DNA of 64,000 bases from Haloferax sp. Atlit-12N (GTDB lineage Archaea > Halobacteriota > Halobacteria > Halobacteriales > Haloferacaceae): contig NZ_PSYW01000002.1 of assembly GCF_003383095.1 (NCBI RefSeq), positions 1,116,001-1,180,000 of the forward strand, in the 5' to 3' direction. The notes under the pieces were generated by a model. The model made no database searches. It saw nothing but the letters and a program-made list of their open reading frames with translations, and was not told the origin of the DNA. The translations under genes and the position numbers were made by a program. Positions 41,484 through 64,000 of the stretch are shown in pieces. Numbering within the stretch: position 1 is the stretch's first letter; every line of letters starts with the position of its first letter.

Positions 41484-41556
41484 GGGCCCGTAGCTCAGTG
41501 GACAGAGTGCTTGGTTCCGGACCAAGATGTCGCGGGTTCAAATCCCGTCGGGTCCG
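41484..41556 (+). tRNA. tRNA-Arg (anticodon CCG)
   Basis: A 73-nt cloverleaf. The acceptor arm GGGCCCG (41484-41490) pairs with CGGGTCC (41549-41555), discriminator G at 41556. The anticodon stem CTTGG/CCAAG encloses the loop TTCCGGA, anticodon CCG, reading the Arg codon CGG. The T-arm has the standard TTCAAAT loop. No intron is evident. The CCA end is not encoded. The gene lies at the junction between GC-rich core genome and the AT-richer region to its right, typical of an integration target. Confidence 0.97.
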
Positions 41557-51825: not shown

Positions 51826-51859
51826 ATTGGCTGTCCCACGTGAGAGTCAGAAACAATAT

Positions 51860-53803
51860 ATGCGATCTGACTCAGCCCGTCCCGAGGGCTGGTGGTTCAA
51901 AGAGCAACCACCAGGACAGTCACACAGTCCGGGGCTCCTCCAGAAGAAGACGCTGGATAGAAGTCTCGATACCTTCGTGAAGGAGATTCTCCAGAATATC
52001 AACGACGCCGGGCTCGAGAACGAGCACCCTGTCGAAGTTACGTTCAGACTCGTAGAGCTCCAAGACCCTCGAGACGTGTTCGAGGAGGCGATCGGTTGGG
52101 ATTCCCTACTAAAACACGTACGTGCAGCGGCTCAGGAACAAAGCAGTCCTGGCCTCAAAGAGTACCTCGACTATCTGGACAGTGGGGGAAAACTGCGAAT
52201 TCTCGTCGCAGAAGAGAGGAACACGAGCGGGATACAAGGAGACGAGGTTTCTACCGATTGTGACTATGCGGCATTAGTCCGCGACCCCGGAAGTAGTAAC
52301 AAGACTGGAGATACAGGTGGGAGACACGGTCTCGGAAGTTCCGTCTTGTGGGTTGCCAGCGGGCTACAGACAGTCGTATTCAACTCTACCTTGGCCGAAG
52401 AATTAGACGACCAGGATTCACCGCGCCTAGTAGGTCGTTCGTTCGTTCCGACGCACCAAACACCAGGTGGTCAGTGGTACGACAACGAAGGTTGGTTCGG
52501 ATCACCGACTGGCCTGAGCAATCCGGACTTGGAGCGTCCAGAGTCGATGTGGTCGAACGTGGCAGAAGACCTCGCCCAAGAGTTGTCGCTGGAGAGACCG
52601 GACGTACCCGGGACGAGTACGATGATCGTCGGGTTCCGCGACCCGTCAGATCCCTCAATGGAGGAACAACCATCGCCGTCAGAGGTCGCGGATATCTTCG
52701 AGCAGACTGCAGCGGACTACTTTTGGCCTGCTATCAGTCGTGGTGACCTCGAAGTGTACTTGGACATGGCAGGCGACGAAAGAGAGATCACCGACGACAC
52801 GATCCGAGACCACGATGGTGTTGCCCCTTTCATCGATTGCTACGAGAGACGCGACGGTGCGCCAGATTCACTAGGCGGGCCTGGTGAGGTTGCCAGTAGA
52901 GAGTTCGACTACGAAATAAGGAGTCGAAAAGACCGTAAGACACCAGAGAGTGGTCCGGTGTCACTCGCTGCACGGAAGGCGTATCCCGACGAGGAAGAAC
53001 GTGTTGGTGAGATCGCTTTCTTCCGAGGGTCGGGGATGGTGGTCAAGTACAAGCCTGCACGACATCTCGGTTTCTCGGAGAAGTTCCACGGTGTTCTCGC
53101 CTGTGGCAACGCACGAACCCAGCCGGGGCGGACGCCAACACGAGAAGACAGAGCTATAGACGAGTTCTTGGCGATGGCAGAGCCTCCAGCGCACGACGAC
53201 TGGGTTGGGAAGAAAAACGACGAGCTCAAGGGAACTTTCGAGCCGGGGTGTGTCAAGCGTGTTCGAAAACTGAAGAGGGACTTACTGAAGAAGCACCTCT
53301 CGAAGTTGCTATACGGCACCCAAGAACGCTCTGGAGACTCGATTCGCCCCGACAGGGACATCTTGCCGAAGACGCGTCGGTCTGGAGGCAGGAGTAACGG
53401 CGTCTCGACGCCGAACGTTTCGAGTCCTTTCGATTGGAGAGTGACAGAATCGGAAGTCGACAAGAACAGGTGGACGTTCGTAGGGTGGATAGAGCCCGAC
53501 CTGGATGTCGAAGGCGAAATCAGACAGTGGGAGGTCGAGATCGAAATCGCGGCCATGTTCGAGGACGATCGAGAAGCTTCCAAGATTCCAGTCGAAGAGG
53601 TCGAAGTCACAGGAAGCCACGTCGGTCGGAGACTTGACGACGGTAGAGGGGTGATAGAGGTGAAGGACGACACGGGGAAAATAGAATTCGATATACGATC
53701 TGAATCTCTTGCTGACGCCGATCCGAGGTTGGGCGACCTCGGTGAGACCAAGTTCAAGATCGTCGACGGGTCTATCAGCATCGAGGAGGTGGCATCTTCG
53801 TGA
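51860..53803 (+). CDS. GHKL-type ATPase (A), first gene of a coupled three-gene operon
   Basis: A 647-residue protein. Its N-terminal Bergerat-type ATPase has an N box EILQNINDA (Glu42, Asn46, Asp49), a G1-like VAEERNTSGIQG (about 116-127) and a G2-like GDTGGRHGLG (150-159) before SSVLW. The rest includes a conserved FRGSGMVVKYKP segment and AEPPAHDDW (about 440), also seen in the homologue at 62216, and a beta-rich C-terminus. It is related to MutL/MORC/Hsp90-type folds in general but is not MORC. It is coupled by GTGA overlap to the next gene. Probable role: ATP-driven clamp or sensor in an unknown defence system. Confidence 0.78.
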   Translation: MRSDSARPEGWWFKEQPPGQSHSPGLLQKKTLDRSLDTFVKEILQNINDAGLENEHPVEVTFRLVELQDPRDVFEEAIGWDSLLKHVRAAAQEQSSPGLKEYLDYLDSGGKLRILVAEERNTSGIQGDEVSTDCDYAALVRDPGSSNKTGDTGGRHGLGSSVLWVASGLQTVVFNSTLAEELDDQDSPRLVGRSFVPTHQTPGGQWYDNEGWFGSPTGLSNPDLERPESMWSNVAEDLAQELSLERPDVPGTSTMIVGFRDPSDPSMEEQPSPSEVADIFEQTAADYFWPAISRGDLEVYLDMAGDEREITDDTIRDHDGVAPFIDCYERRDGAPDSLGGPGEVASREFDYEIRSRKDRKTPESGPVSLAARKAYPDEEERVGEIAFFRGSGMVVKYKPARHLGFSEKFHGVLACGNARTQPGRTPTREDRAIDEFLAMAEPPAHDDWVGKKNDELKGTFEPGCVKRVRKLKRDLLKKHLSKLLYGTQERSGDSIRPDRDILPKTRRSGGRSNGVSTPNVSSPFDWRVTESEVDKNRWTFVGWIEPDLDVEGEIRQWEVEIEIAAMFEDDREASKIPVEEVEVTGSHVGRRLDDGRGVIEVKDDTGKIEFDIRSESLADADPRLGDLGETKFKIVDGSISIEEVASS

Positions 53804-54810
53804 AGCAAATTCAACTGAACAAGGGGCTGTCTTATCGAACGTACCCCCACCGCTGTGAACCTGGTTCACTCGAATTTTCGGTGACGGAGTATTCAATCAA
53901 CGGCAAGTCGTCGAGCGAACCAGATGTCGATCAGCTCGTCGACATCAAAGAGTACGAGGGCTGGGATACACTCACCTTAGAGATCGAAGTGACGATTCCA
54001 GAGGGCCTACTGGGGAAGGTCTTCCCGGAGTTCGGAAAGATACCGGGAATGCTCGTCGTCACCGCTCACTGTCGGGAGACGTATCTCCGTGAACGGTTTG
54101 TACTGGCTCGGGACCCGATAAGTTCGGGGACGTACGAAGGAACGTGGGAGTTCGATTCAAAAGACGTCAAGGGGAGCGTTGACCTCCGCCCGATTCTGAT
54201 ACGTACGACCGATACGTCGCAGTCGATGAACTACGCGACGGACGCGGGTGTCTTCGTCGCTGATGGCCCAGAGTGGCGGATAGATATCAGCGACACGAGT
54301 AGGGAAGACCAAGGCCTCCTAGACGTCCGATCTAAATCGTTCGAAGAGGTCCACGAGGCAGACGACGATACTCGCTTCCCATCCTCGGACCGGTTCTATT
54401 ATCTGGACCTGGAAGGCGATCCTGATGTGCCAGTGCTGTGGCTCAACGAAGACCACGAGAAAGTGACCACAGTGATTCAGGACGCCGAGAGTGAACACGA
54501 GAAGGTAGTCTCAGACCTCGTTTGGAATCAAGTCATGACACCAGTTTGGACTCGTCTCGTCACGGTCGCTGCGACCGAGTACGATCCTGACGAAGACGAT
54601 TGGGCACCAGAGTGGCAGGGAGCTGTCTTCGACGAACTCCACGACGAGCTCTATCCTGATCACACACCAGAGAAGACCGCCGAACGACTACAGGAGGACC
54701 TCTCGGAGTCTGTGGTACTCGCGACGAAGAAGATAGAAGGCGCTGTACAGGAGCTCCTAGAGCCAGCCGACTACTATACGAAACACATCCAGAACTTGGC
54801 GGAAAGATGA
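53800..54810 (+). CDS. Operon partner (B) of unknown function
   Basis: A 336-residue soluble acidic protein. The first 170 residues look all-beta (LSYRTYPHRCEPGSLEFSV; LTLEIEVTIPEGLLGKVF). The remainder is mostly helical (KVVSDLVWNQVMTPVWTRLV). DPDVPVLWLNEDHEKV at about residues 208-223 is the most motif-like stretch. No known domain was recognised. It starts with GTG overlapping the ATPase gene by four bases and ends with ATGA overlap to the next. The tight coupling on both sides indicates one complex or one pathway with the ATPase. Confidence 0.75.
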   Translation: MKQIQLNKGLSYRTYPHRCEPGSLEFSVTEYSINGKSSSEPDVDQLVDIKEYEGWDTLTLEIEVTIPEGLLGKVFPEFGKIPGMLVVTAHCRETYLRERFVLARDPISSGTYEGTWEFDSKDVKGSVDLRPILIRTTDTSQSMNYATDAGVFVADGPEWRIDISDTSREDQGLLDVRSKSFEEVHEADDDTRFPSSDRFYYLDLEGDPDVPVLWLNEDHEKVTTVIQDAESEHEKVVSDLVWNQVMTPVWTRLVTVAATEYDPDEDDWAPEWQGAVFDELHDELYPDHTPEKTAERLQEDLSESVVLATKKIEGAVQELLEPADYYTKHIQNLAER

Positions 54811-55526
54811 CACAGACGACCTTGGCCCGGTTGAAGACCGATGCAAAGCGACTATTGGACGACGAGGAATTCCTGAGGGGTGACAAAGAGTTCTTCGAAG
54901 AAGGAAGGCTCGAGAGATATACACAGACGACGAACTTCAGTGCGGACATCGACGCTTTAGAGGACCGTCTGAGAGAGATCGTAGACGAGTATCCACAGTT
55001 CGAAGGAGAGATGGATTCCGAGGCAGCAGTCGCCGTCCACGAGGAGATCGATTTGAGTCGTAGTGAAGCGAGTGACTCGAGAATCTGGAACGATCTCGCG
55101 ATGCGTCACTTCCCGTGGTTCGTCCGCCACAGGTGGAGATACGAGAGTCAGACGGGGATGAAGAAGAAGTTCTGGACCTACGGTTCTGCTCTCGACTCGG
55201 CCTCCAGTACCTTCGAACGGTTGTGGTGGATTGCCGAGATGACCCAAGAGGACGGCGACTACGAGAACACCAAGAAGGCATTCGAGAGCCGACGGTTCTG
55301 TTTCCGTGTGTTCGACATCCAGCTCGGCCGGTACAAACCAGCGGCGCTTGCGTGTCTCGAAGTACTCTACGACGAAGACGAAGAGTCGTTCGCAGCAAAC
55401 GACGTGATAGACGAGACGATACAGAGGCTCCGCCGTGCCGGCACCACGATACCATTCGAAGGGCGGACGAAATCAGAGTTAGTAGATGTCGTTCAGAGTA
55501 TTCGAGAAGACGTCGAGTCAGGGTGA
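54807..55526 (+). CDS. DUF6339-like protein (C), third gene of the operon
   Basis: A 239-residue helical protein. The segment WNDLAMRHFPWFVRHRWRYE followed by KKFWTYGSALDSASSTFERL and WWIAEMTQ (about residues 93-150) matches what I remember of DUF6339 (W..LA....P.YVR.RW). DUF6339 proteins occur near ATP-binding proteins of accessory regions in bacteria, but their function is unknown. The ATG overlaps gene B. The Trp/Arg-rich core could bind nucleic acid. It is followed by 165 bases before the convergent methylase gene. Confidence 0.75.
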   Translation: MTQTTLARLKTDAKRLLDDEEFLRGDKEFFEEGRLERYTQTTNFSADIDALEDRLREIVDEYPQFEGEMDSEAAVAVHEEIDLSRSEASDSRIWNDLAMRHFPWFVRHRWRYESQTGMKKKFWTYGSALDSASSTFERLWWIAEMTQEDGDYENTKKAFESRRFCFRVFDIQLGRYKPAALACLEVLYDEDEESFAANDVIDETIQRLRRAGTTIPFEGRTKSELVDVVQSIREDVESG

Positions 55527-55691: not shown

Positions 55692-56789
55692 TCAGTCGAC
55701 GTAGTCACCTAACGCCGCCTGTTTCTTCTCCCCCCGTAGGTGTTCCAACAGGCGCCGTCCAATGATCTCACCGAGTGCGGGAGGTACTGCGTTTCCGATC
55801 ATCCGACCAAGTTTTGTAATACCGATATCTTCGAATTTTTCGGCGAACTCGTAGTCACGAGGGAACGTTTGAATCATCGCACCCTCCCGTAGCGAGATGG
55901 CCCGGTTCTGGTCTGTATCGTAGTGTCCAAATCTACCACTTCCCAAATTGTAGAACTGTGTCGTGATAGTGGGTGCTGGCTCGTCGGGTCGCATCCGGCC
56001 GTATACGGAACCGAACGAACGTCCACTCTCGTCGAGGTGGCAGTCGAGTAGTAGCTCCTCGTCCCAGTCTTCCCAGGTACCCCCAGGAACAGATTGTTCG
56101 ATTCGTCTGAGGTTGATGTCGTCGAGTGACCGAGCAGTGTGAAGCCAGTCTTCGGGATGGGAATCACCAGCTTCGATTGCAGGAAGGTCGTCGATTCGCT
56201 CCTTGACAGACTCAAACTGACTTGGTCGGTTGTGAATTCTGGGGGAGAAGTTGAACGGACCCCGCTTCGACGCGGTTACCACCCATCGCCGGCGTGTCTG
56301 CGGGATACCGTACTCTGGACAGAATACCCGCTTGTTCCAATCTGGGTTCAACAGGTAGCCCATCGATTCCAGCAGCTCTTCGAAGTCTTCGTACACCACT
56401 TCGTGGCGAAGTTCGTAGACGTTCTCCATCACCACGAAATCTGGTTCGATCGCGGCGACGATCTCACCGAACTCGGAGAGCATCTCGTACATCTCGTGGT
56501 CTTCGCTCTCGGAGCCGTGGTTAAGTGATGAGAAAGGCTGGCAGGGAGGACACCCAGCGACAAGTGTCGCATCGGCATCATCGTCCAACCACTCAGCTAT
56601 TTTTTTGGGGTTCTCCTTCGAGATTTCGGCTAAGTCAGCGGGTACGAAGTTGGCCTCGTTGTTTTCATTGTAGGCGTACCGACAATCCGCGTCAATATCG
56701 AAACCGGCCTCCACCGTTACACCTGCAGTCTCAAGGCCGTTCGTGAGACCTCCGGCACCACAGAACAGGTCAACGGCGGATACGTTCAT
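55692..56789 (-). CDS. C5-cytosine DNA methyltransferase (copy 1)
   Basis: A 365-residue DNA (cytosine-5) methyltransferase. Motif I DLFCGAGG (SAM binding, about residues 7-14), motif IV with the nucleophile Cys83 (GCPPCQPFS), motif VI ENV (122-124), motif VIII QTRRRWV and motif X GNAVPPALG are all present. It should be active. Its target-recognition region is very like that of the methylase at 59178-60230 (shared GGTWxDWD and ESGRSFxSVYGRM). The ATG at 56789 is 9 bases after the expected transcription start given the TATA box at 56820. Confidence 0.93.
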   Translation of the reverse strand: MNVSAVDLFCGAGGLTNGLETAGVTVEAGFDIDADCRYAYNENNEANFVPADLAEISKENPKKIAEWLDDDADATLVAGCPPCQPFSSLNHGSESEDHEMYEMLSEFGEIVAAIEPDFVVMENVYELRHEVVYEDFEELLESMGYLLNPDWNKRVFCPEYGIPQTRRRWVVTASKRGPFNFSPRIHNRPSQFESVKERIDDLPAIEAGDSHPEDWLHTARSLDDINLRRIEQSVPGGTWEDWDEELLLDCHLDESGRSFGSVYGRMRPDEPAPTITTQFYNLGSGRFGHYDTDQNRAISLREGAMIQTFPRDYEFAEKFEDIGITKLGRMIGNAVPPALGEIIGRRLLEHLRGEKKQAALGDYVD

Positions 56790-56819
56790 GTTGCTATTGG
56801 ATGGAAGTTCGACGGAACA

Positions 56820-56829
56820 GATAAAGCGT
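56820..56829 (-). promoter_or_regulatory. TATA box of methyltransferase copy 1
   Basis: On the minus strand CGCTTTATCTG contains a TTTATC-type TATA element whose +27 position falls at about 56798, just before the ATG at 56789. It shows that this methylase has its own promoter rather than being the last gene of the MORC operon. Confidence 0.45.
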
Positions 56830-56898
56830 TCGTCTCCGGATATCGACACACGAGGGGTCGGTTGACGAGTCCGATTTCAGTATTGGCCTGTGTCGAAA

Positions 56899-57121
56899 TC
56901 ACAAAGAGACAAAGACCTGTGAGTTGCTTCTAGAGACGTACTGTATGAGAAACTCGGGGGGCACCAGACGACAGTCTTGGCAGGGCTCTATTGAGGAAGA
57001 ACTCAGCGACAAAGACTCCGTAGAGAGAGGCTTCGGGGTCACACCACGGATATCGACGAACGTTGTCTTCACTCCATTCGAGGATCTCGACACGGAACTG
57101 TTCGGCGTGTAGTTCGTCCAC
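56899..57121 (-). pseudogene. Remnant of an HhH-GPD DNA glycosylase (Mig-like)
   Basis: The first 45 codons from the ATG at 57121 (FRVEILEWSEDNVRRYPWC and SLYGVFVAEFFLNR) match the N-terminus of MutY/Nth-type HhH-GPD glycosylases. The reading frame then shifts near 56985, and the next frame gives VPPEFLIQYVS, which continues the alignment (typical EFLxRYPS). The rest of the protein, including the catalytic Asp and Fe-S cysteines, is missing. In methylase operons this family repairs T:G mismatches from deaminated 5-methylcytosine. The similarity is recalled, not computed. Confidence 0.5.
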
Positions 57122-57175
57122 GATACTGGTCGTTGGTCACGCTCTGGTACAAAAAGTTCAGCAACACGAGAGAAG

Positions 57176-59188
57176 TCAGTCGAACACGTCTCCGTCGTCA
57201 ATCTGGTCGAGGAGCCTCGAGACACGGCCATTCCGGGAGTCGTTCGAAGTTCGGGACTGGTATACTCGGGACGTCTCTCTCAGGAGGTCTTCGTACTTCT
57301 TGACGACGACTCCTCGTTTCTTCAGGAGACCTTCCAACTCACTCCACGTCTCGGTGTCGGGGACCACGAAGACGACGTCTGCGAACTGAGTATCGTACCC
57401 CTCTTCTTCGAGTCCGTGTTCGAGAGCATCCTCGAACGTATCGACCAAATCGTGGAGCCCAGAGTTCGCGGGTTCGGTCGGGTGACGGAGCGCGACCAAC
57501 GTGTACCCAGACGCTGCGCGAACACACCGAATACTCGACTCGTCGACGTCGTCTCCGTCGAAGTGACCTGCTTCGGATAGGTAATTCTCGACCGTCTTCT
57601 GCAACTCCTCGTCAACCGGTGACTGTTCCCAGGCAGGGTTCAGCAACCACGGGTGCTCTCTCAAGTGCACGAACGTCTTGTCGTCTACGCCCTTCTCTTC
57701 GACTCGGCATAAGAACGCGTCTACGACTTCCTTCCGATGAGAGACCATCTGCTGGTGCTGAGAGGACTCTACGTCGTCTAAATCAGAGAGTGTGCGAGAG
57801 ATCGTCCGTCCGTCGGCCTCGGTCAAGTCGCCGATACTGTCGATCTTCTCTTGGTACTTCAGATTCTCGAAGGCCAAGATGCCGTACTTGAAGAGTTCTC
57901 TCCGGTCAGACTCGTCTTTCACCGACATCCGGCTAATCTTCCCCAAGAGACTCTGAGCCCGCTCACGCTGTTCTGGTGCGAGACTCTCGTACCACATGTC
58001 GACGATTCCAATTTGACGTGCTTCTCTGGAGGCCTGCTGGTTACGCAGGTCGTTCCACTTCCCGGCGATGTGGCTCAATTGGATGCGGAGGAAGTCAAGG
58101 AGTTCCTGATATCGTGGATCTTCCTTGACGACGTCCTCACGATTCGAAGTCGCGATATCTTCCTGGTCGTCGTAATCAAGAAAGTCGGCGTGGATCTCAC
58201 CGACGAGGTATTTGGAGAACATTCGACTGTCGTTCACACTCTCCAAGAGGTCTGGCTTGGCCATCCGCCCTCGGACCATCAAAGAGATCTTGTTCAGGTC
58301 GTCGGCTTCGGTGTCGTGGCCCGGATAGTCCTCAACTAAGTCACTCGGTTTCTCTACGGTTCCGATCCATCCGGACACCTTGTATCCGTCAGGGGTCTTA
58401 CCCTCTCGTTCCTCGTGGGCTTCAAGCTTGGAATCACGACAGAGATCTCGATAGTGGTGGTCTTCGAACGTCCACAGGAACTGAACTTTGTGGAAGTAGT
58501 CGCGATCCGTCGCAGTAACCTCTTCGCCGTTGATCCTCACGGTGAAGTCGTACTCGGTCCCGAGAATACTGAACCGTCGTGCGAGCCGTTTCCGAAGTGC
58601 GTGTTCGGTGGTGTGAACCCGCTTCGTGAGGTCGGTGAGGACGATCTTCGTCCCTTCGGTGAATTCGTCCGGGAAGTCGTCTAGTGGTGTCGGGACGTAC
58701 TGTTGCTGTTGGACTCCAGAAGATGACTCTTCTTCACCGATGGCTCGCTGGATCTCGCTCAGTTGCATCCTGAAGCCATTATGATCGCCATCTTTGGCCG
58801 TGTACACGTCAACAGTCTCGGCTACGGACAGGAGGGAGAGTTTCCCGATGCCCTTGCGACCCATCACAGGCCGGTCGTGTATCGGTGTGCGGTTCGAGCG
58901 TTCGTCATCTCGGCGTCTTCGATATCCGACACGGAGGTACCGCTCGTTCACGTCTTCGGCGTCCATCCCCTGCCCGTCGTCAACGATCACGATCTTCTCT
59001 TCGTCGGGGTAGATGTCCACGTCAACGTTCTCGGCGTCGGCGTCCCACGCGTTAGCGACTGCTTCAGACAGTACTGCAGGAACGTTGCTATAAAGGTTCA
59101 GCCCTAGGTGGTTCAACACGTTGAGGCTGAGAGACATCTTGTACGGGGAATCACTCTCCGACTCTGTAGATTCTGGCTCAAGCTGCGA
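57176..59188 (-). CDS. MORC/MutL-like GHKL ATPase of a restriction-type operon
   Basis: A 670-residue protein. The N-terminal GHKL ATPase is textbook: N box EAVANAWDAD (Glu43, Asn47, Asp50), G1 DDGQGMD (71-77) and G2 GRKGIGK (111-117). An S5-like transducer follows with KGxxxxITDLT-type GTKIVLTDL (about 184-192). The remaining part has no nuclease motif I recognise. Prokaryotic MORC-type ATPases coded beside C5-methylases have been described in restriction-modification operons (Iyer, Abhiman and Aravind, 2008). The start overlaps the preceding methylase gene by 11 bases. Predicted function: ATP-dependent DNA clamp. Confidence 0.87.
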   Translation of the reverse strand, partial: SQLEPESTESESDSPYKMSLSLNVLNHLGLNLYSNVPAVLSEAVANAWDADAENVDVDIYPDEEKIVIVDDGQGMDAEDVNERYLRVGYRRRRDDERSNRTPIHDRPVMGRKGIGKLSLLSVAETVDVYTAKDGDHNGFRMQLSEIQRAIGEEESSSGVQQQQYVPTPLDDFPDEFTEGTKIVLTDLTKRVHTTEHALRKRLARRFSILGTEYDFTVRINGEEVTATDRDYFHKVQFLWTFEDHHYRDLCRDSKLEAHEEREGKTPDGYKVSGWIGTVEKPSDLVEDYPGHDTEADDLNKISLMVRGRMAKPDLLESVNDSRMFSKYLVGEIHADFLDYDDQEDIATSNREDVVKEDPRYQELLDFLRIQLSHIAGKWNDLRNQQASREARQIGIVDMWYESLAPEQRERAQSLLGKISRMSVKDESDRRELFKYGILAFENLKYQEKIDSIGDLTEADGRTISRTLSDLDDVESSQHQQMVSHRKEVVDAFLCRVEEKGVDDKTFVHLREHPWLLNPAWEQSPVDEELQKTVENYLSEAGHFDGDDVDESSIRCVRAASGYTLVALRHPTEPANSGLHDLVDTFEDALEHGLEEEGYDTQFADVVFVVPDTETWSELEGLLKKRGVVVKKYEDLLRETSRVYQSRTSNDSRNGRVSRLLDQIDDGDVFD

Positions 59189-60230
59189 CATCGTGTTCCT
59201 CCATGTGGTCAACGATACTCCGACCGATTACCTCGCCGAGGCGGACTGGTACCGCGTTCCCGACCATCTTCCCGATCGTCTTGAACTCTACGTCGCCTCC
59301 TTCTTCGACGAAGGCGTAATCCTCGGGGAACGTCTGGAGCATCGCTCCTTCTCTGAGCGAGATGGCACGATCCTGCTCAGGATGCCCGAATCGACCGCTA
59401 CCGTAGTTGTAGTACTGTGTCGTCATCGTCGGAGCAGGCGCGTCCCACTCCATCCGCCCGTATACAGAGTCGAAAGAGCGGCCACTCTCTTTTCGATGGC
59501 AATCGAGCCTGATATCGGGGTCCCAGTCTCTCCACGTCCCACCGGGTAGTGACTGTCCGATCCGCTCTAGGTTCTGCTCTTCCAGTGTACGGGATTTGTG
59601 TAAGTGGTCTTCGTTCGAATACTCTCCAGCTTCGATCGGTGGTAGGTTACCGATCACCTCGCGAACAGTGGGATAGTCGGCGGGGTCGTGGGTCGGGTCG
59701 ATCAAAGGGACGTCTCCGAGCTTCGAGGCTAGTAAGACGATCCGGTTACGGCGTTGTGGGATGCCATAGTCAGGGCAACTCACTTTGTCGAACCAGAGTT
59801 GGTACCCCTCTCTGAACAGCGTGTTCACGAAGTCCGAGTAGACCGGTTCGTTTCGGACCTCGGCGACGTTCTCCATCGTGACGATAGCAGGCTGTATATC
59901 CTCCACCAACTCCCCGAAGCTCTGGAGGAGACTGTACTCGGAGGTCTGCGACGTGTCCCGTCCATTGTTGAGATTAGAGAATGGCTGACAGGGTGCACAG
60001 CCAGCGAGTATCTTGGTAGAATCGTCGGGAAAGAGTGACTCGACGTCGGACGAGTCGATATCCGAGACGTCGGCCTTGACGAACTCGGCGTCGTTGTTCG
60101 CTTCGTAGGGGTACCTACAGTCGGGGTTTATCTCGACGCCGGCGGCGACGGGGATGCCAGCTTGCTCCAGCCCGTGAGTCAGTCCCCCGACACCACAGAA
60201 GAGATCGACTGCTGCGAGATTAGAACTCAT
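59178..60230 (-). CDS. C5-cytosine DNA methyltransferase (copy 2)
   Basis: A 350-residue DNA (cytosine-5) methyltransferase. Motif I DLFCGVGG (9-16), motif IV with Cys81 (GCAPCQPFS), motif VI ENV (120-122), VIII PQRRNRIV and X GNAVPVRLG are intact. It is a paralogue of copy 1 (55692-56789) with a nearly matching target-recognition region, so the two may methylate the same or a closely related sequence. It lies 47 bases after the DUF262 nuclease gene and overlaps the MORC ATPase gene, so the three form one operon. Confidence 0.93.
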   Translation of the reverse strand: MSSNLAAVDLFCGVGGLTHGLEQAGIPVAAGVEINPDCRYPYEANNDAEFVKADVSDIDSSDVESLFPDDSTKILAGCAPCQPFSNLNNGRDTSQTSEYSLLQSFGELVEDIQPAIVTMENVAEVRNEPVYSDFVNTLFREGYQLWFDKVSCPDYGIPQRRNRIVLLASKLGDVPLIDPTHDPADYPTVREVIGNLPPIEAGEYSNEDHLHKSRTLEEQNLERIGQSLPGGTWRDWDPDIRLDCHRKESGRSFDSVYGRMEWDAPAPTMTTQYYNYGSGRFGHPEQDRAISLREGAMLQTFPEDYAFVEEGGDVEFKTIGKMVGNAVPVRLGEVIGRSIVDHMEEHDVAA

Positions 60231-60277
60231 CTAGGAAATCCTCCGGAAAGCATCGTGCGCATCATCCTATTACTCAC

Positions 60278-62071
60278 TTATACCACGTTCGTCTCGGTCT
60301 CGGCAGCCGAATCGATCCACAGTTCGAGACACTCGTCGATCAGATTCTCGTGTCTCTCTTTGAGTAGACTCGGCGTCCAACTGTCGAACTCGGACAACTC
60401 GTTCGTTATCGCGAAGTCGCTCTTCTTCTCGAAGTACTCTCTGTACTTTCTCGGGAACGGCCGGTTGCTCGCCTTGTAGTTCTTGCGCCCGTCCAAGAGG
60501 ACTAGATTTCCGAGACGGTTCGTCCACTTCTCGCGTTCCAACTCGTCACTGAAACGCTGGGTCCAATAACCACTACTCGGCTTCTGTGGGAGGATGTGCT
60601 CTACGTTGATGTTGTTCCCGTACTGGACCTTGACGTTCCGGTTGTCGTACCGCTCCAAGTTGAGACGCATCAAGATGTACTTCGGCCACTGGTAGTTCCC
60701 CTTCCGATAGAAGTTGCGTAGGTCCAACGATTCCTCGAAGTCCTCTTTCTCGGCTCGCAAGTCCCCTGTGAGATAGTCCGACCTCAAGACCTCCCGCGGA
60801 CCGTCGGCCGATTCTATGGCTTTGAGGATACTGTACACGCGTGAGTATCGGTCACTGCTCGACGAGCCGGTCAACCAGTCGACCGTGAGCCGACGTTCGA
60901 GGCGACAGACGAAGTCGTAGAGTAGGCCCTCGTCGTCGAACGTCTTGTCGAACTCTATCAACGCCACGACCCACTCGTCCGACGGGTAGAAGTCGCGCAT
61001 GACCGAGACCAGGTTGGCGTAGTAGACGTTCTTGTGTTCGTCGTCGGCGTCTAGTTTGGCGTCGTACACTCGCTTCCGATGGACGTCGAAGACTTGTTCG
61101 AGCTCGTCGACGAAGTCACGGCCGCGGTAGTCTGGCTTTTTCGTGAAGACTTCGCTAAATTCGTCGTAGATAGACTTCTGAGACTTGTTCTTGACGAGGA
61201 TGTGCCGCATGTACCCGATGAACCGTTCGAGCCCCTCGTTCCCGACCTCCTCTTCCATATCTTCCCACTTTCGCTGGTACTCGTCGCGGTGGGTCTCGGG
61301 GATCTGACTGAGGTTTTCGCTCTTCAGGAGGTCTGCGTTGTTGAGGGGCATCCCACGTGCGTTCGTGACGTTGAACAGACGGAACGCAGAGCTCAGTGAA
61401 TCCGTCATTATTCGGACCATCACGACTCGCTGCGGGATGAACGCCGCTAACGAGGTGAGGTCGTTCCCACGACTGGCCCACTGTTCGAGCCGTTCGTCGA
61501 AGGTAGAGACTGCCTGTAGAATGTTCTGCTGCGGTTCGGTGTCGCCGTTGGCTGGATCGGCAGGGTCAAGTGTCGCTTTGCGTTCCAGGACGTTCTCCTC
61601 GAAGAAAGCTTGGTCTCGGTCTCGGATACGGAGTCTAACGGAACCTTCCTGCCCCTTCGCGAAGTCCTCTTCTTCTTGGACGAAACGGTCGAGAGAAGTC
61701 GACCACCCTTCGTGATCAAGACGGTCCCTGAGGACACAGAGTAAGATTGCCACCGAAGTGAGTCGCTGCTGGCCGTCGATGACGTCAAAGCGGTCTCCAG
61801 TCGATCCGCCCCGGTTCAAGATGATACTCCCTAGGAAATACGGTTCGTAGGCCTTCGTTCGGGACTTGTCGAGTTTCTGGTCGCTATTCAATAAATCGCC
61901 GTGTGCCAGACTGTTCGATTCGTAGGCGTCGGTCAAGTCGTCAACGAGGTCTACGAAGTTCTCCTCCGTCCACGAGAATGGACGTTGGAACTTGGGAATC
62001 TGGTAGAGATAGTCCTCACCGTACAGTTTGTGGACGAATTCTTCTTCGGCATCGATCTGACTTCCGCTCAC
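60278..62071 (-). CDS. DUF262/DUF1524 HNH nuclease (GmrSD-like)
   Basis: A 597-residue protein. The N-terminal DUF262 domain has the ParB-like DGQQR motif (99-103), needed for nucleotide hydrolysis in this family. The C-terminal DUF1524 domain has HILPQ (about 492-496) and RLGNLVLLDGRKNYKASNRPF, the His-Asn HNH/beta-beta-alpha metal nuclease core. The single-chain two-domain layout is that of GmrSD/BrxU type IV enzymes, which cut modified phage DNA, and of SspE. It heads the operon with methylase copy 2 and the MORC ATPase. Its promoter is divergent from the second GHKL gene. Confidence 0.88.
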   Translation of the reverse strand: MSGSQIDAEEEFVHKLYGEDYLYQIPKFQRPFSWTEENFVDLVDDLTDAYESNSLAHGDLLNSDQKLDKSRTKAYEPYFLGSIILNRGGSTGDRFDVIDGQQRLTSVAILLCVLRDRLDHEGWSTSLDRFVQEEEDFAKGQEGSVRLRIRDRDQAFFEENVLERKATLDPADPANGDTEPQQNILQAVSTFDERLEQWASRGNDLTSLAAFIPQRVVMVRIMTDSLSSAFRLFNVTNARGMPLNNADLLKSENLSQIPETHRDEYQRKWEDMEEEVGNEGLERFIGYMRHILVKNKSQKSIYDEFSEVFTKKPDYRGRDFVDELEQVFDVHRKRVYDAKLDADDEHKNVYYANLVSVMRDFYPSDEWVVALIEFDKTFDDEGLLYDFVCRLERRLTVDWLTGSSSSDRYSRVYSILKAIESADGPREVLRSDYLTGDLRAEKEDFEESLDLRNFYRKGNYQWPKYILMRLNLERYDNRNVKVQYGNNINVEHILPQKPSSGYWTQRFSDELEREKWTNRLGNLVLLDGRKNYKASNRPFPRKYREYFEKKSDFAITNELSEFDSWTPSLLKERHENLIDECLELWIDSAAETETNVV

Positions 62072-62215
62072 GATGATTAGTCAAGTGTCAGTTTATCCTA
62101 ATAATCCTTCCGGGGAATTGAGATTGAGGTATTGGCCAAACTAGCGCGGTTCCAATATCCATTCGACTCATCAGTTAATTATAATATCACTGATGGTCAC
62201 GGTTCGGCATCGTCT
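62072..62215. promoter_or_regulatory. Divergent promoters, DUF262 operon and second GHKL ATPase
   Basis: A 144-bp AT-rich spacer. TTAATTATAATAT (62176-62187) gives a TATA-like box whose +27 position lands near the GTG at 62216, indicating a leaderless rightward message. Leftward AT-rich stretches near 62094-62105 can serve the DUF262 gene. The promoters drive two opposing arms of the island from a common control region. Confidence 0.5.
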
Positions 62216-64000
62216 GTGAATTTGGAGACATACTTCCACAAGCGTGAACAGGGAGAACGCAGGCTGGGCACTGCACTCACCGACATCGCGCTCGACCAAC
62301 GACTCGAACAGTTCGTCCGTGAAACAGCCCAAAATAGTGCTGACGAAGCCCAAGATGGGTTGACGCCCGAACTCCTCTACCGCTTCGATCAACTCGAAGG
62401 ATCTCGTCTCGACGAGTTCTTAGACGCAATTAACTGGGACACGAAGTTCCGAGATCACCTAGAGGCCGTCGCGGAAAACGACGACGAGATTGGTGTACAG
62501 AACATGGTCGACCGGATAGAGAAGGGTACACTTCCACTTCTGATGGTCGAAGACAAGAATACGACCGGGTTGACAGGGGACGAATTTTCTGACGACACTA
62601 ACTACGCGTCTCTGATTCAAGATTTTGGCCGATCTACGAAAGACGAATCAGAAGGCGGAGTTCACGGTGTCGGTGCGTCTGTACTGTGGGGTTTCTCCGG
62701 AATCAAGACTGCCATGTTTCTGACGACGCCTGAGGGATGGTCTGACACAGATGTACCACGATTCGTGGGCCGAATCGATCTGCCATTCCACGAATACGGA
62801 GGGAAAGAATATCACGGAGACGGATGGATTGGTAATAGCGGCACTCAGGACCGCAGAGCAGTATCGATAGAGGGGCCTACTGCAGCAGACATAGCTGCGG
62901 ACGCCTTACACATAGACGAAAGTCGGGCTAGAGCTGATGCTACCGGGACCACGGCAATCGTCGTGGGATTCCGAGAGCCTAGTCGCAGCCGTCGCTCTCC
63001 CCAGAAGGTGATAGAGCGGATCGAAGATCTGGCAGTCATGTACTACTGGCCACTAATTCTCGAGGATGGTCTCGATATTTCTATCCAAGCACCCGACGAT
63101 AGCTCACCCTCGGCTATCGACCCAACAACGAACAAGGACCTGGAGGCGTTCATCGAAGCGTACCAACAGCGGGACTCGGCGAGTGAAACACTCGGTGCTG
63201 CACCTGACGTAGCCGCGATCAACATCCCACTGACAGTGCCCGCACACAAGGATGGAAAGTCGTCGACGGATGCAGAGGTCACTCTCGTAGTTCGAAGCCA
63301 CGAATCACGACCCAACAGCATGCCGAACCAGATTGCGTTGTTCCGTGGCGCGCGCCACGTGGTCAAATACCGGAAGTACGACCACATCGCCCGGTCCACT
63401 ACTCAGCACTTTCAGGCGATCCTCCTCGCAGGGAAAGCTCGACATCCGTTTGATGCTGACGACGACGATATTCCTGATTCGGATCTCGTGGTCGAGGACT
63501 TCTTCCGTAAGGCTGAGCCGAAAGCCCACGATACTTGGGAGAAAGAAGTCAGCAAACTGGAACATAACTATTCAGGGGGTAGCAGCGAGATCAATACACT
63601 GTTCAAAGACACTCTACCAGCACGGTTGACGGAGCTTCTCACCTCCGCCGGCTCCGACGACAGTGAAATGCTCGGGGACGTCGGACGGCGGTTCCCCTAC
63701 TTCTCAGGAGGACCGAACCGAGGTCGAAGCCGCGGTGGTGGGGGTGGTGGTAGTCGAACTATAGAACGTGTCAGATCCAACCTCAATCACATCGGTGACA
63801 AGTACCGTAGTACGGGGACTTTAGAGCTAACAGAGTCCTTGGAGGACGACTGGGGATTGACGGTGGAATTCGCTGTACTCGATTCTTCCAACAACGTAAT
63901 CGAGACCGTTGCGTTGGACAACATTTCCGGAACAGACCCTGAAACAGGCGCAAATTTGTCTGTGGAAAACAACGAGACAATGGTTCGAGTCCCCGGTGGA
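62216..64000 (+). CDS. Second GHKL-type ATPase (A'), partial at the window end
   Basis: An open frame of 595 codons without a stop, so the protein continues beyond 64000. It is homologous to the protein encoded at 51860: N box RETAQNSADE (Glu36, Asn40, Asp43), G1-like VEDKNTTGLTG (111-121), G2-like GGVHGVGASVLW, then FRGARHVVKYRK and AEPKAHDTW. It ends in a glycine-rich linker (GGGGGGS, about 500) before beta strands. The GTG at 62216 is chosen from TATA spacing. Gene A has no such glycine linker. Homologues of B and C would be expected to the right if this is a second operon. Confidence 0.82.
   Translation, partial: MNLETYFHKREQGERRLGTALTDIALDQRLEQFVRETAQNSADEAQDGLTPELLYRFDQLEGSRLDEFLDAINWDTKFRDHLEAVAENDDEIGVQNMVDRIEKGTLPLLMVEDKNTTGLTGDEFSDDTNYASLIQDFGRSTKDESEGGVHGVGASVLWGFSGIKTAMFLTTPEGWSDTDVPRFVGRIDLPFHEYGGKEYHGDGWIGNSGTQDRRAVSIEGPTAADIAADALHIDESRARADATGTTAIVVGFREPSRSRRSPQKVIERIEDLAVMYYWPLILEDGLDISIQAPDDSSPSAIDPTTNKDLEAFIEAYQQRDSASETLGAAPDVAAINIPLTVPAHKDGKSSTDAEVTLVVRSHESRPNSMPNQIALFRGARHVVKYRKYDHIARSTTQHFQAILLAGKARHPFDADDDDIPDSDLVVEDFFRKAEPKAHDTWEKEVSKLEHNYSGGSSEINTLFKDTLPARLTELLTSAGSDDSEMLGDVGRRFPYFSGGPNRGRSRGGGGGGSRTIERVRSNLNHIGDKYRSTGTLELTESLEDDWGLTVEFAVLDSSNNVIETVALDNISGTDPETGANLSVENNETMVRVPGG

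Follow-up and report, generated by a model that had tools for sequence, protein, structure and literature searches.

How would self DNA be spared where a DUF262/HNH nuclease stands in one operon with a C5-cytosine methylase? An earlier note on the DNA analysed here, a stretch of 64,000 nucleotides referred to as the window (G000:C2:1116001-1180000, where G000 is its genome), raised this question as a paradox, namely that a modification-dependent nuclease is coupled to a host methylase. The paradox presumes that the DUF262 protein cuts DNA carrying 5mC. However, the activities of DUF262/DUF1524 enzymes vary; they span 5mC cutters (BrxU), glc-5hmC cutters (GmrSD) and users of the host mark (SspE) (PMC10952713), and the paradox is not supported as it was put. 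Which protein of the locus would then tell self from non-self, and which one would cut?

Layout of the cassette and its island

A tRNA-Arg gene is found at 41484-41556 of the window, and beyond it, near 41.5 kb, G+C drops from about 0.69 to 0.50. An island begins here that carries integrase and resolvase-like genes, and the cassette is located inside it. As listed in Table 1, the cassette consists of four minus-strand genes, which encode a DUF262/DUF1524 protein, a methylase (MT1), a GHKL ATPase and a second methylase (MT2). All four had been named at this place before, and Pfam/NCBIfam matches confirm them. What had been missed is that a triplet of PDC-M33, a candidate system of PADLOC, lies on either side of the cassette, at 51827-55526 and from 62132. 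In the first triplet the A and C genes were recognized in order by PADLOC, while the B gene was assigned by position and cross-locus conservation. Downstream of the second triplet there is an OLD/AriA-like ATPase gene (L048 2158-3735, in the window's genome). The window is from a Haloferax genome, and the nearest relative found is H. prahovense DSM 18310, the only match given by a scan of genome contigs.

Table 1. Features of the cassette and its flanks, in window coordinates
Feature	Position	Strand	Basis
DUF262 + DUF1524 (GmrSD-type), 597 aa	60278..62071	-	Pfam PF03235 3.5e-36, PF07510 3.2e-27; PADLOC Orf5 1.2e-132
C5-cytosine methylase MT1, 350 aa, GHKL partner	59178..60230	-	PF00145 3e-51; tree position
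GHKL ATPase, BbrUII/HgiDII family	57176..59191 (ATG 59191)	-	NF050001 5.5e-192, 639.8 bits
Degenerate D-ExK motif position of the GHKL gene	57485..57535	-	Alignment with relatives
HhH-GPD DNA glycosylase remnant	56939..57121	-	Comparison with intact H. prahovense gene
C5-cytosine methylase MT2	55692..56789	-	PF00145 4.6e-45; DrmMII PDLC02651 5.7e-127; tree
PDC-M33A copy 1	51827..53803	+	PDLC04582 3.6e-21
M33B copy 1	53800..54810	+	Without library match; middle gene of triplet kept in 34 loci
M33C copy 1 (DUF6339)	54807..55526	+	PF19866 6.9e-19; PDC-M33C 2.4e-13
M33A copy 2	62132..64000	+	PDLC04582 6.1e-17; B and C beyond window edge

Judged by their spacing, the DUF262, MT1 and GHKL genes form one operon. 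The nuclease gene comes first in it, as had been proposed. GGAGG-type ribosome sites lie upstream of both MT1 and the GHKL gene, and the MT1 stop and GHKL start overlap by 14 bases. For MT2, the ATG at 56789 is the more probable start compared with the GTG at 56849. A TATA-like CTTTAT lies about 35 bases upstream of this leaderless ATG, which makes the claimed promoter of its own plausible. The 327-base gap upstream of MT2 contains a broken HhH-GPD glycosylase gene, of which the first part is left; about 460 bases are deleted and several frameshifts are seen in comparison with H. prahovense, where the gene is intact (220 aa, PF00730 3.3e-10), as it also is in genomes G330, G146 and G319. A glycosylase homologue with 34% identity lies elsewhere in the window's genome, at G000:C2:43085.

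The GHKL protein and the two methylases

What kind of protein is the GHKL ATPase? The earlier note described it as MORC-type. It is a GHKL ATPase indeed, but it is better called a homologue of the BbrUII/HgiDII restriction enzymes. It matches the NCBIfam equivalog of this family, NF050001, in full length (residues 24-671 on model positions 1-659) and above the cut-off of 550 bits. Our check against MORC covered the GHKL motifs; a further mark of strict MORC proteins is an S5 domain with GhXhhpXXRhl (Iyer 2008). No GHKL relatives were seen in the viral contigs searched.

The window protein was aligned with 18 relatives. A C-terminal pattern, R-[IVL]-D-[IL]...[IV]-[ED]-[LM]-K, occurs in five bacterial homologues (two from Rhizobium and one each from Rubrobacter, Deinococcus and Burkholderia) and three haloarchaeal ones (Halobaculum, Haloplanus and G250), and in these eight D-ExK is intact. 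The window protein has S553, A567 and R569 (numbered from ATG 59191) where the relatives show D, E/D and K, and all three residues are likewise gone in H. prahovense and G330. The G319 protein retains the D, with E and K replaced by A and Q. D-ExK is also absent from a more distant GHKL clade (G079, G293, G251). Among the relatives tested, intact proteins score 651-843 bits against NF050001 and those with degenerate D-ExK 640-649. The protein is a member of the family by descent, and it is predicted to be dead as a restriction enzyme. That the C-terminal domain would be a nuclease of the RE fold is suggested by motif conservation and the family name; an AlphaFold2 model computed from an input of just two sequences has a pLDDT of 33 and was set aside. 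Taken alone, the reading of the GHKL subunit as nuclease-dead seems to us very probable.

When was the site lost? The GHKL tree has the form (G250,((Halobaculum,Haloplanus),(G319,(G330,(window,H. prahovense)))), with strong support at its forks. Because G319 is placed basal to G330, the window and H. prahovense in this tree, E and K were probably lost once, ahead of the G319 split. The ATPase motifs E..AN.WDADA, DDG.GM and MGRKGIGKLS are kept in every member of the GHKL branch. For the window against H. prahovense, dN/dS is 0.02 in the ATPase part and 0.12 in the dead C-terminus; against G330 the values are 0.07 and 0.16, and over all comparisons the C-terminal domain spans 0.12-0.19. The C-terminus is also the fastest-evolving part, with 59% identity to G330 compared with 84% for the ATPase part. 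Since dN/dS is low in the ATPase half and moderate in the dead domain, the protein appears to be maintained as an ATPase, with its former nuclease domain under relaxed but real constraint.

MT1 is under strong purifying selection, and its tree mirrors the branching of the GHKL tree within the haloarchaeal clade. Such agreement is predicted by co-inheritance; MT1 and the GHKL protein are an M/R pair of the BbrUII/HgiDII family. MT2 belongs to a separate supported clade (100/99) together with the methylases of M33-triplet loci, several of which also have DISARM genes. Do the two methylases mark different sites? The region between motifs VIII and IX is the usual place of greatest divergence among C5-methylases of different specificity. 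MT1 and MT2 are 54% identical overall, with 57% in this target-recognition region and 53% elsewhere. Because this region is as alike as the remainder of the proteins, the two likely share the same or nearly the same target. If they are like HgiDII, the target would be GTCGAC, for which M.HgiDII is cited as a 5mC methylase in PMC5867850. The ratio of observed to expected GTCGAC in the window is 0.76 in the core and 1.03 in the island, and is uninformative as to avoidance of the site. As a separate observation, CTCGAG is strongly depleted in the core (1-41400), with 5 seen and 42 expected under a Markov model, and less so in the island (10 seen, 13.8 expected).

Distribution of the DUF262 gene and the M33 triplets

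Is the DUF262 gene a fixed part of this system? In the alignment its DGQQR and HNH (VEHILP...GNLVLL..N) motifs are intact, and with dN/dS of 0.05 against H. prahovense and 0.07 against G330 it is under strong constraint. Homologues at about 60% identity or above are found in just 7 of 391 haloarchaeal genomes. Each of the three genomes in the innermost nuclease-dead clade (window, H. prahovense, G330) has it as the first gene of the operon, and the full combination is confined to these three, two of them sister species. The neighbourhood survey proposed in the earlier note thus gave a divided result: DUF262 adjoins the GHKL/MT1 pair in these three genomes, but not in G146 (Halobaculum), Haloplanus GX21, G319 or G250. 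G146 does have another, different DUF262 gene (637 aa) some 6 kb upstream of its methylase gene, and in G319 the sole GmrSD_N gene is 2.4 Mb from the GHKL locus. The D-ExK-intact GHKL enzymes have no adjoining DUF262 gene. Conversely, the closest DUF262 homologue outside the cassette clade (G156, 83% identity) is found without GHKL or MT1. As the pair and the DUF262 gene each occur apart, DUF262 is a lineage-specific addition to GHKL/MT1 and no fixed part.

Relatives with the pair but without DUF262, of which there are four, had been proposed as a sign that the adjacency is accidental. Their existence bears out that proposal in part. Even so, the adjacency is not random, because the four DUF262 genes that are at least 83% identical (window, H. 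prahovense, G330, G156) all adjoin one well-supported M33A sub-clade, and because G330, a well diverged relative, keeps the same four-gene order with the cassette under purifying selection. Nor is a DUF262 gene at such a place as little described as had been thought: DUF262 genes inside modification operons are already known, RloF being a DUF262-type gene within type I RM operons (PMC4619093). In annotated records we found DUF262-like genes with an MTase gene on one side and a HEPN gene on the other, or placed between S and helicase genes. In Rhodococcus pDJL2 (L116 17344-20250) a methylase 51% identical to MT1 lies in an operon with HEPN-like nuclease and short DUF262 genes, without GHKL.

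The M33 triplets point to a larger context. M33A is present in 29 of the 391 haloarchaeal genomes, with two or three copies in 25 of the 29, and flanking copies come mostly from different paralogue clades (L081-L106). Of the M33 loci examined (L081-L103), all 23 have a 5mC methylase that is closest to MT2, and 20 have a homologue of the broken glycosylase; drmA lies at 10 kb or less from M33 in 14 of the 29 genomes. These comparisons describe a conserved locus type, made up of a methylase, a glycosylase, two or three M33 triplets and variable effectors. The effectors include DISARM, a BbrUII-type pair and a 508-aa protein which is GIY-YIG-like by eye. The last (cluster c6; L082, L089-L097, L099, L104) is kept at M33 loci, has no Pfam match and shows the GIY-YIG-like stretch PGLYRVRHSELPGLMYVGESG; perhaps it is the nuclease of those loci. 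Beside it stands cluster c5 (258 aa), whose fold is methylase-like by eye, with ENVP and PVC stretches. M33A itself looks GHKL-like by eye only (stretches EILQNINDAG and GGRHGLGSSVLW), and profile comparison with the GHKL family gave no usable similarity. As for the glycosylase, its loss in the window may make C-to-T mutation more frequent at methylated sites, provided that no other copy stands in for it.

A possible mechanism, its alternatives and known systems

Then how might the cassette work? Our preferred reading, put forward tentatively, is that it does not stand alone as a composite but supplies the modification and effector functions of a 5mC-based defence locus of haloarchaea, with a GHKL sensor and HNH cutting in trans. 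Self DNA would be marked by MT1 and MT2. The GHKL subunit would no longer cut; like MutL, it would serve as a sensor or clamp at unmarked sites, gated by ATP and sensitive to methylation, and would hand the signal to a separate nuclease that cuts or nicks in trans. The most likely nuclease would be the HNH domain of the DUF262 protein, because its gene heads the same operon throughout the innermost dead clade, and it is plausible that HNH took over cutting from the lost RE site. Self DNA would be spared as the trigger is an absent mark, not because DUF262 disregards 5mC. One fact against this coupling is that G319 lost E and K yet has no DUF262 in its locus; the loss of the RE site therefore probably preceded DUF262, and HNH was not needed at once. 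That only three genomes have the full combination also counts against it. A bolder version, in which the whole block and both M33 triplets are one machine derived from a haloarchaeal DISARM-type locus, with drmABC replaced by a nuclease-dead GHKL self-mark sensor that licenses a GmrSD-family HNH nuclease, is unlikely as it stands. The degrees of confidence given to the best explanation and to its rivals are not fully exclusive of one another.

The alternative that survives best, doubtful as it is, takes DUF262/HNH as the nuclease partner of M33 copy 1, with the MT2-glycosylase-GHKL-MT1 block inserted later between M33C and DUF262, and the GHKL pair and DUF262 being neighbours that do not act together. 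The four close DUF262 genes beside one M33A sub-clade agree with it. So does G156, where M33C and DUF262 point towards each other as immediate neighbours, followed by a pentapeptide-repeat gene, drmC, drmB and drmA; since MT1 and GHKL are lacking there, DUF262 may serve M33. However, the DUF262 homologues at 58-64% identity (G046, G289, G236) have neither M33 nor GHKL within 20 kb, and elsewhere in the wider clade M33 copies occur without DUF262. It is also rather unlikely that DUF262 works on its own as a type IV enzyme, directed at cytosine modifications of other kinds (e.g. glc-5hmC), and shares only the island, while GHKL/MT is a decaying type II system with persisting methylases. In favour of this, GmrSD genes accompany islands in general (PMC4619093), and the window has neither an unbroken glycosylase gene at this place nor the RE site. 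But decay is hard to reconcile with purifying selection as strong as that seen for the GHKL ATPase and MT1, or independence with the four-gene order kept in G330. A third possibility is that DUF262 is an SspE-like, 5mC-sensing effector, activated by the self mark of MT1 or MT2 and then nicking unmarked DNA. SspE combines these two domains as well and relies on a host mark (PMC10952713), and the HNH parts of the two can be aligned. But as a whole the protein resembles SspE only weakly (E 2.7e-05, mainly HNH), and the literature searched gave no case of such a protein being activated by 5mC. We consider this improbable. Least credible is that the GHKL protein still cuts via other residues, as a working type II system with DUF262 as an optional extra: its C-terminal domain retains some constraint and the distant clade lacks D-ExK as well, but none of the three catalytic residues is left in the window protein, and this terminus evolves fastest.

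What is new here? Defence islands with an RM pair, DUF262 next to modification genes and GHKL ATPases with an RE domain are already known. As far as the open literature searched is concerned, two things appear new: a nuclease-site loss with retained ATPase in a clade having DUF262/HNH, and the linkage of M33, methylase, glycosylase and DISARM in haloarchaea. No mention of PDC-M33 or DUF6339 was found in that literature. If the preferred reading is true, a restriction enzyme has been converted into an ATP-driven sensor of self and non-self with a separate cutter, like the division of labour between MutL and MutH, and the role of the GHKL ATPase in restriction, and by extension that of MORC proteins, would be directly testable in a genetically tractable archaeon. 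Whatever the mechanism, the tight link of M33 to 5mC methylases, glycosylase and DISARM in haloarchaea gives PDC-M33, an uncharacterised candidate system, a functional context.

How does the cassette compare with known systems? It resembles the BbrUII/HgiDII type II RM systems (GTCGAC) in its full-length GHKL enzyme above the family cut-off and in the overlapping C5-methylase gene, but differs in the missing D-ExK residues and in adding a second methylase, DUF262/HNH and M33 triplets. In the MORC/paraMORC operons of Iyer, Abhiman and Aravind 2008 (PMC2292703), a GHKL ATPase with a C-terminal RE-type domain lies near cytosine methylases and mismatch-linked repair genes. The cassette shares this arrangement; unlike those operons, it has no helicase and its nuclease site is degenerate, and DUF262/HNH is not among the partners named in the sections consulted. 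The bacterial GHKL relatives sit in helicase-based defence loci, in line with the 2008 operons. Side by side, the BbrUII-family GHKL, a 5mC methylase and Vsr were seen next to DISARM in Deinococcus AJ005 p96k (L110), and next to Druantia type II in Rhizobium WSM4643 (L114) and Rubrobacter marinus (L115).

With DISARM class 2 (drmMII) the cassette shares the MT2 clade, whose methylases belong to haloarchaeal M33 loci, several with drmABC and glycosylase; unlike DISARM, it has no drmA in its genome (PDLC02576 at E 1e-40 found none in G000, G189 or G330). The DrmMII model PDLC02651 matches both cassette methylases (4.1e-108 for the weaker match), but this label was rejected as proof of DISARM, since both methylases are also hit by models of type II MTases. 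Druantia type II is similar in that bacterial GHKL relatives occur in DruE2 loci (in Rhizobium also with DruF2) together with a 5mC MTase and Vsr, but no Druantia gene was seen at the window locus. Finally, the DUF262 protein is like GmrSD, BrxU and SspE in having DUF262 and DUF1524 in one chain, and differs from them in that its gene opens an operon which also encodes a 5mC methylase and a GHKL subunit.
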